Part shown: piece after piece, positions 6,417-64,000 of the stretch | How the letters are laid out: each line of letters opens with the position of its first letter | Numbering within the stretch: position 1 is the first letter of the stretch | NCBI RefSeq assembly: GCF_900155645.1 | Contig: NZ_LT706985.1 | Location: 1,722,051-1,786,050 of the forward strand | Direction of reading: 5' to 3' | DNA from: Vaginimicrobium propionicum | GTDB taxonomy: Bacteria > Actinomycetota > Actinomycetes > Propionibacteriales > Propionibacteriaceae | DNA: 64,000 nucleotides | Made by a program: the position numbers and the translations under genes | Notes under the pieces: generated by a model | The model's database searches: none | Told to the model about the DNA's origin: nothing | Seen by the model: only the letters and a program-made list of their open reading frames with translations

Positions 6417-7220
6417 TTAGGCTGCAAGGGTCTGATTTCGGTATTGTGCCGGGGTCAGGCCCTTGAGTCGTTCTTGGATGCGTTCGTTGTTGTACCAGGT
6501 GATGTACTGGTCGAGTTTGGATAGGAAATCTTCGATTGTGTCGAAGATGGATGGGTAGTAGAACTCGGTTTTGAGGTGGGAGAAGAAGTTCTCGGCTAGG
6601 GAGTTGTCGTAGCAGTTGCCTTTCCTGGACATAGACTGGATAGCGCCGATCTTGGCCAGTTGGTTTTTCCATGAGGAGTGTTGGTAGTGGAAACCTTGAT
6701 CGGTGTGCATGATCAGTCCGCGTTCGGGGTGTTGCTTCGCGATCGCGTCTTTCAGGCTTGCTGCTGATAGTGACGTGGTCGGAGCCAATCCTACCCGGTG
6801 GGCGATTACTTGATGATCGTAGAGGTCGATGATCGGCGAAAGGTAGACCTTACGGCCTGCGAGGCGGAACTCGGTGATATCACTAACCCATTTACGGTTC
6901 GGCTTATGAGCGACAAAGTCTCGTTTTAGGACGTTGTCAGCGATGTTACTGACCGTGCCACGATAGGAGTTATAGCGACGCTTGGGACGTGTAATACAGG
7001 TCAGGCCTTCGCGTTTCATGAGTTTAGCGACGAGTTTGTTAGATACTCGCCAGCCGTCCTTCATCAGCACGAGACGGATCCGCCGGTGTCCATAGTGGCC
7101 TTTGGCATGTTCAAAAACACCACGAATCGCTTGGGCAAGATCTTCATGTTTATCAACGCGCCCAAGCCGGGCTTGATGGTAATAAAAAGTTGATCGGGCA
7201 AGACCAGCAATAGACAACAA
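6417..7220 (-). CDS. IS150-type transposase OrfB (DDE integrase)
   Basis: Catalytic part of an IS150-group transposase. From its internal ATG it is 267 residues, but the frame is open further upstream to the orfA overlap, so the natural product is probably an OrfAB fusion. An HTH_21-type region (GLARSTFYYH, GHYGHRRI) precedes the rve core, with DDE residues in WVSDITEF, MHTDQGFHYQ and DNSLAENFFSHLKTEF. The C-terminus has the family YNNERIQERLKGLTPAQYR motif. No damage is seen. Confidence 0.93.
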   Translation of the reverse strand: MLSIAGLARSTFYYHQARLGRVDKHEDLAQAIRGVFEHAKGHYGHRRIRLVLMKDGWRVSNKLVAKLMKREGLTCITRPKRRYNSYRGTVSNIADNVLKRDFVAHKPNRKWVSDITEFRLAGRKVYLSPIIDLYDHQVIAHRVGLAPTTSLSAASLKDAIAKQHPERGLIMHTDQGFHYQHSSWKNQLAKIGAIQSMSRKGNCYDNSLAENFFSHLKTEFYYPSIFDTIEDFLSKLDQYITWYNNERIQERLKGLTPAQYRNQTLAA

Positions 7221-62689: not shown

Positions 62690-62763
62690 AAAAGAAAAGA
62701 GCCCCGAAGGGCTCTGGAGCATTCGACGTCTCGAACGAGGAGACGCTTACTAAGAATCAGTTC
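62690..62763 (-). ncRNA. tracrRNA of the type II-C CRISPR-Cas system
   Basis: On the minus strand, an anti-repeat-like segment (GAACTGATTCTTAGTAAGC) is followed by a nexus-type hairpin (GTCTC-CTCGTTC-GAGAC) with GTCGAATGCTCC, then a terminator hairpin AGAGCCC-TTCG-GGGCTCT and a TTTTCTTTT tract (62689-62697). The order anti-repeat, nexus, terminator is that of Cas9 tracrRNAs, and the pieces AGAACTGA, AGTAAGC and TGCTCC resemble the Corynebacterium/Actinomyces type as I recall it. A promoter with a 17-base spacer lies just before it. It would pair with the crRNA repeat, recruit RNase III and load Cas9, which is encoded divergently 110 bases away. The exact 5' end is unknown. Confidence 0.8.
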
Positions 62764-62769
62764 TTATTC

Positions 62770-62798
62770 AGGATGCCTTTAAGATAGCGACAAGTCAA
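62770..62798 (-). promoter_or_regulatory. Promoter of the tracrRNA
   Basis: On the minus strand TTGACT (62798-62793) is followed after exactly 17 bases by CATCCT (62775-62770). The -35 box is near consensus, the -10 box is weak. Transcription would start near 62763. Confidence 0.6.
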
Positions 62799-62873
62799 GT
62801 ACTGATCATGAAAAACCCAGGGCAATGTTGCTGTTAAACAAAAATGTCAGTGCCGTTCGTCATAATGAGCGTC

Positions 62874-64000
62874 ATGGAAACAATGAAGTTAGGTATAGAT
62901 GTTGGAACTAACTCTGTCGGACTATGCGCGCTAAGCGTTGATGCCTCAGGTCGGCCACTAAAGATCTTGAACTCCATGACGGTCATCCACGATTCGGGCG
63001 TGGATCCTGAAAAGCAGAAACCCGCAGATACCAGACTTGCAACTGCTGGAACTGCACGACGTATGAGGCGTTTGTATCGAAATAGAAGAAAGCGTCTACG
63101 TCAGCTTGATGAGAAAATAAAAGAGCTCGGGTGGCCAATAATAAACCTCGAAACTTTGAATGATCCGTACGCTCCATGGAAAATAAGGGCACGGCTGGCT
63201 AAGTCGAAATTACCTAAAGAAGAACTACCGGCTGCTATGTCGATAGCATTACGCCACCTCGCTAGGCATAGAGGCTGGCGAAGCCCCTACGAGAGGGTCG
63301 AATCACTACATTCCAAGCACGACGACAGCGAGCTATTTCAGCAACTCAAGCGTCGCGTGAGCGACGAAATTGGGCGACCAGTTGATGAGTTATCTACTCC
63401 GGCTCAGGTTATATGTGAGTGGGGTTTGAGCCCAGCCAAGCGGTTACGAAACGCAGGTAAAACAAAATATGGCTCCGATTCAGTGAAGAATGGCGTATCA
63501 GTATCCGGAGACCTAAAAGCCGGCATTCTAGGCGGCAAACTCATGCAGTCTGATAATGCAAATGAAATCATGCGTATAGGAAAAATGCAGGAATTGCCAC
63601 AACATTTAATTCTGGAACTAATCGATCTGGTTTTTCATGCCGCAAGCCCTGTGGGATCAGCGTCAGCAAAAACCAAGAAGGATGCGCTGCCAGGACAAGG
63701 CAAATACCCACGTGCATCGAAAGCAAATTTAGAGTTTCAGAGGTTCCGCATCGTCCAAGTGGTCGCGAACTTGAGACTCACTGAATCCAAGACCGGCGAG
63801 ATACGTCTCTTAACTCCATCAGAGAAGACGAAAATCATAGATTTCTTGATGTCAGCTGACGAAACTGACGGAATCACCTGGGGCGACGTTGCCGAGCTGC
63901 TCGGCGTTGATCGAGAGCAGTTGAACGGTACGGCACAGCTATCGCCAGACGGGGAACGTGCATCATCGTTTCCGCCAATTAACGTTACACAAAAGCGCAT
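62874..64000 (+). CDS. cas9: Cas9 endonuclease, type II-C (N-terminal part)
   Basis: Cas9 is the RNA-guided DNA endonuclease of type II CRISPR. About 375 residues are visible before the window ends. They contain RuvC-I (LGIDVGTNSVGLCALSVD with the catalytic Asp), the Arg-rich bridge helix (ARRMRRLYRNRRKRLRQLDE), and the recognition lobe start (ALRHLARHRGWRSPYERVESL, KLMQSDNANEIMRIGK, LPGQGKYPRASKANLEFQRF, RIVQVVANLRL). These segments line up from memory with Actinomyces naeslundii Cas9. HNH, RuvC-II/III and the PAM-interacting domain lie beyond the edge. Starts at 62844, 62865, 62874 and 62883 are all in frame; none has a good ribosome site. Confidence 0.95.
   Translation, partial: METMKLGIDVGTNSVGLCALSVDASGRPLKILNSMTVIHDSGVDPEKQKPADTRLATAGTARRMRRLYRNRRKRLRQLDEKIKELGWPIINLETLNDPYAPWKIRARLAKSKLPKEELPAAMSIALRHLARHRGWRSPYERVESLHSKHDDSELFQQLKRRVSDEIGRPVDELSTPAQVICEWGLSPAKRLRNAGKTKYGSDSVKNGVSVSGDLKAGILGGKLMQSDNANEIMRIGKMQELPQHLILELIDLVFHAASPVGSASAKTKKDALPGQGKYPRASKANLEFQRFRIVQVVANLRLTESKTGEIRLLTPSEKTKIIDFLMSADETDGITWGDVAELLGVDREQLNGTAQLSPDGERASSFPPINVTQKR

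Follow-up and report, generated by a model that had tools for sequence, protein, structure and literature searches.

A predicted type II-C tracrRNA gene divergent from cas9 in Vaginimicrobium propionicum

The tracrRNA gene of Streptococcus pyogenes was reportedly placed by Deltcheva in 2011 upstream of cas9 and on the opposite strand. More than one transcript length is known for this RNA (PMC11417352). Across type II systems at large the direction of the tracrRNA gene varies, for the most part in a clade-specific manner (PMC7606464; PMC3936727), and within a Cas9 clade it is generally conserved (PMC7606464). The tracrRNA of Bifidobacterium bombi lies on cas9's own strand (PMC4521832), unlike the one described here for Vaginimicrobium. 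Arrays that run opposite to the cas operon have been described for type II-C (PMC3936727).

The window is the 64,000-nucleotide stretch of DNA that was analysed, bases 1722051-1786050 of the V. propionicum genome, which consists of one contig of 2.01 Mb. Judged from its sequence, the minus strand at 62690-62768 is confirmed as the putative gene for the type II-C tracrRNA of an ordinary CRISPR-Cas9 system (Table 1). Taken whole, the results are almost certainly best explained by a standard type II-C CRISPR tracrRNA which is divergent from cas9 and pairs with the crRNA repeats. Pointing away from cas9 is the sole unusual trait of this gene.

Table 1. Features of the tracrRNA-cas9 region of V. 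propionicum, in window coordinates
Feature	Position	Strand	Details and basis
tracrRNA gene	62690..62768	-	predicted primary transcript ~79 nt, start ~62768, end ~62690; covariance-model match
Putative tracrRNA promoter TTGACT-N17-CATCCT	62770..62797	-	-35 at 62797-62792, -10 at 62775-62770; position conserved in 70 loci
Anti-repeat	62748..62767	-	pairs with crRNA repeat bases 1-16; duplex and ungapped scan
Nexus hairpin	62726..62746	-	GCGUCUC/GAGACGU; fold and covariation
Conserved single-stranded motif GAAUGCUCC after nexus	62716..62725	-	alignments
Intrinsic terminator, UUCG tetraloop and T tract	62690..62715	-	scan and fold
cas9 (type II-C)	62865..64000, running past the window to L002:4224	+	TIGR01865, 181.7 bits (cutoff 100), whole ORF

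The preliminary description had placed a complete tracrRNA-like unit on the minus strand upstream of cas9, and all of its elements were found there. A covariance model built from relatives only (34 tracrRNAs, without the Vaginimicrobium genome and without Propionimicrobium lymphophilum) matched minus-strand positions 62716-62764 in cmsearch with 59.4 bits (E 8e-13). With the all-sequence model, the whole genome yielded a single convincing match (E 1e-10) and a runner-up at E 1.45; no better tracrRNA lies elsewhere in it. An Rfam search at E up to 1 returned no match. The region has the attributes of the tracrRNA class, namely complementarity of the anti-repeat, a nexus right after it, a 3' intrinsic terminator and the match to the relatives-only model.

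To the right of the window (sequence L002, where window coordinate equals L002 coordinate plus 62000) the gene order is cas9-cas1-cas2 (TIGR01865, TIGR03639, TIGR01573), followed by an array at L002:5496-6171 with 11 identical 36-nt repeats and 28-nt spacers. No csn2 or cas4 was seen between cas9 and the array, whose crRNA sense is the minus strand, opposite to the cas operon. The locus accordingly has the marks of type II-C: cas9-cas1-cas2 only, a Cas9 of ~1000-1150 aa and an array opposing the cas operon. Alignment to the P. lymphophilum Cas9 puts the cas9 start at 62865, with 62844, 62874 or 62883 also possible; starts at 62865, 62874 and 62883 leave 97-115 bases to the predicted tracrRNA start, where about 110 bases had been given earlier for a plus-strand cas9.

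The existence of an array beyond cas2 and of a repeat complementary to the anti-repeat had been anticipated from the window, and both were borne out. The array repeat (GCTGGGAATCAGTTCT...) reads GCTGGGAATCAGTTCTACTTCCCTTTGATAGACTTC in the crRNA sense, and its bases 1-16 form 16 contiguous pairs with the minus-strand RNA, 13 Watson-Crick and 3 G-U. The core of the anti-repeat, AAGAACTGATTCTTAG, falls inside 62748-62769, and the core 12-mer AGAACTGATTCY has 12 exact genomic sites, the 11 repeats and the anti-repeat. Of the 18 positions in the stretch CTAAGAATCAGTTCTTAT, which had been predicted to be repeat-like, 14 agree with repeat bases 2-19; among the four mismatches, two are G-to-A changes, for which G-U pairing is retained.

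Both hairpins named in the preliminary description are present. The nexus reads GCGTCTC-CTCGTTC-GAGACGT in DNA letters, and among 45 sequences its stem has 94 cells altered on both sides, with a covariation score of 0.90 as against 0.27 when shuffled and at most 0.20 in slid controls. Paired cells make up 92% of the stem, compared with 60% after shuffling. The terminator AGAGCCC-UUCG-GGGCUCU (62715-62698), followed by TTTCTTTT, was recovered by an unbiased scan and also by folding.

The comparison drew on 70 actinobacterial loci, Vaginimicrobium included, each of which has both a cas9 homologue and a recognisable tracrRNA; in the contig search for relatives a single-protein query gave nothing and an alignment query found the loci. 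The promoter TTGACT-N17-CATCCT proposed earlier is present and its position is conserved across this sample, but on its own it is weak, with a -10 hexamer (CATCCT) that agrees with the consensus at only 3 of 6 positions and a non-significant fraction of shuffles doing as well (0.08). No consensus sigma-70 promoter was found in the tracrRNA-cas9 region at the threshold of the scan. In most of the 70 loci there is a promoter-like pair whose -10 begins 9-14 bases ahead of the anti-repeat, and the promoter score at this conserved distance averages 8.1 versus 6.7, a value of 8.1 being reached by 0 of 300 shuffled sets. Because the position is conserved in this way, we place the start at the first base of the anti-repeat, where transcription probably begins.

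A longer tracrRNA is unlikely. It would start upstream of 62790 and have an anti-repeat reaching as far as 62788, in which GCTATCTTAAAGG would base-pair with CCTTTGATAG, the repeat's 3' half; the proposed -10 box would in that case be transcribed and would not be a promoter. A duplex prediction spanning 62788-62748 (-31.3 kcal/mol) points in this direction, as does a local alignment between the 60 upstream bases and the 3' half of the repeat (shuffle p 0.0125), a value which is weak since it concerns one of nine genomes. None of the 8 relatives shows an extended anti-repeat (p 0.13 to 0.97), and the promoter position in the 70 loci sets the start at the anti-repeat.

For the short tracrRNA that we prefer, RNA polymerase would begin where the anti-repeat opens (~62768) and transcription would end at the UUCG terminator (~62690), giving an RNA of ~79 nt. 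Its anti-repeat would pair with the first 16 bases of every crRNA repeat, these repeats being transcribed on the same strand as the tracrRNA from the array beyond cas2, and RNase III together with Cas9 would turn the tracrRNA:crRNA duplex into a dual guide. Transcription, processing and function are what we infer, while the anatomy, the pairing, the covariation, the rarity of the orientation and the place on the tree are shown by the sequences. A complete and well-delimited guide-RNA pair (tracrRNA and repeat) is now available for an uncharacterised compact Cas9.

The tracrRNA is on cas9's own strand in 66 of the 70 loci, mostly 100-310 bases upstream. The four divergent loci are those of Vaginimicrobium, P. 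lymphophilum (L057), a Corynebacterium MAG (L074) and a Bifidobacteriaceae MAG (L077), and where they fall on the Cas9 tree calls for at least three changes of orientation. Vaginimicrobium and P. lymphophilum are sisters in this tree (support 96/95), and Trueperella, with a same-strand tracrRNA, is next outside the pair (support 100/99). Since the sister pair has a same-strand neighbour outside it and same-strand loci prevail in the sample, the divergent arrangement is rare and would be derived here; we infer an inversion of the tracrRNA unit that Vaginimicrobium shares with P. lymphophilum. The alternative topology, which joins Vaginimicrobium to Trueperella, has a p-AU of 0.07, which leaves a single origin for both divergent genomes somewhat short of certain. 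With at least three flips, actinobacterial type II-C systems provide a small natural experiment on tracrRNA direction versus cas9 expression.

Flanking inverted repeats were considered as a cause of the flip and set aside; none occur in the window, and P. lymphophilum has an 11-nt one. A 10-nt inverted pair in L077 was discounted because its arms lie inside two genes, cas9 and the ABC-transporter gene upstream of it. In Arcanobacterium pluranimalium, a second, minus-strand tracrRNA was a false match within a transposase gene. The same species has a transposase-like gene (L072:5484-6897) between tracrRNA and cas9, by which the two are driven 1.5 kb apart relative to A. bovis (L052). The anti-repeat of Corynebacterium minutissimum contains a short tandem duplication (CCTCAGCCTCAGTAAG; L066:6887-6941).

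It had been suggested that tracrRNA and cas9, starting from one short region, may share control. Joint control is speculation; as the intergenic space is ~100 bases, the two promoters could interfere with each other. We think it very unlikely that tracrRNA transcription, or a Cas9 loaded with a long tracrRNA, represses cas9, which would make the repeated actinobacterial inversions regulatory switches and not neutral rearrangements. A self-regulating long tracrRNA was sought across the 70 loci and is unsupported, with no excess of the cis repeat mimic.

The long tracr-L of S. pyogenes (type II-A) is a natural single guide that sends Cas9 to its own promoter (PMC11417352). A counterpart in Vaginimicrobium would be a long tracrRNA from near the cas9 start codon, in which the repeat-like GATCAGTACTT (62812-62802, minus strand) folds onto the anti-repeat and steers Cas9 to its own promoter, and we give it hardly any credence. 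The mechanism is a known one and the window does have the repeat-like stretch upstream (shuffle p 0.03), but stretches of this kind reach p<0.05 in only 6 of 70 loci as against 3.5 expected, close to the chance level, that of P. lymphophilum has a p of 0.94, the scan found no upstream promoter and the fold would lack its lower stem.

Several further observations concern the array and the cas genes. At the end of the array repeats stands the extended -10-like motif TGATAGACT, and the pattern TGnTAnnMT occurs close to the repeat 3' end in 53 of 62 related arrays, which is consistent with the repeat-borne promoters known for type II-C (PMC12080349). Just outside the cas2-side repeat, TTACTTCCCT (L002:5484-5493) is complementary to AGGGAAGTA within that repeat, so this end of the array could form a hairpin. 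When 8 spacers were compared with viral contigs, no full-length match was found. The third listed spacer (L002:5660-5687) matches at L133:486-505 in viral contig IMGVR_UViG_2918843722_000002, with its 20 PAM-proximal bases exact and 24/28 overall, followed by GGCGGCGTAA; this site is a possible but unproven target. The Vaginimicrobium Cas9 clusters with those of Trueperella and other Actinomycetaceae, apart from most Propionibacteriaceae Cas9s, and GC content is 48% in the cas genes versus 52% in their surroundings, which together suggest that the CRISPR locus may have been acquired by lateral transfer.

That the tracrRNA is decayed or silent, orphaned by the inversion, is scarcely credible: the weak -10 hexamer and the spacer result (0/8 with a full-length viral match) would fit such a state, but the anti-repeat, nexus, GAATGCTCC motif and terminator are all intact, as are cas9, cas1 and cas2, the array repeats are all identical, and the arrangement is kept in P. 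lymphophilum despite 41% Cas9 divergence.

The standard, divergent tracrRNA proposed here has one of its nearest likenesses in P. lymphophilum DSM 4903 (L057 / L041), a member of the same GTDB family (Propionibacteriaceae), which also has a divergent tracrRNA, ~115 bases from cas9, with a near-identical anti-repeat and GAATGCTCC motif and a Cas9 that is 59% identical. A literature search for a paper on the P. lymphophilum tracrRNA found none. Its nexus stem and promoter differ from those of Vaginimicrobium, and its cassette lies between perfect 11-nt inverted repeats which are absent in Vaginimicrobium. These repeats (TTCAAAGAAAT; L057:6744-6754 and 6882-6892) are the longest among the 70 loci; one arm contains the -35 box, and an arm-to-arm inversion would leave the promoter intact. 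A 15-nt inverted repeat (AAGGTAAAACCCTGA/TCAGGGGTTTACCTT; L057:6891-6921) between the P. lymphophilum tracrRNA promoter and cas9 resembles an operator or terminator; no such repeat was seen in the window.

As in B. bombi and other actinobacteria, the Vaginimicrobium gene is a type II-C tracrRNA upstream of cas9 in a cas9-cas1-cas2 locus (PMC4521832). As in S. pyogenes (type II-A), it opposes cas9, although the S. pyogenes tracrRNA is of a different subtype and RNA family. A divergent tracrRNA is an already known kind, since orientation varies among type II systems; what the analysis adds is that, among actinobacterial relatives, the divergent arrangement is rare and has arisen repeatedly.
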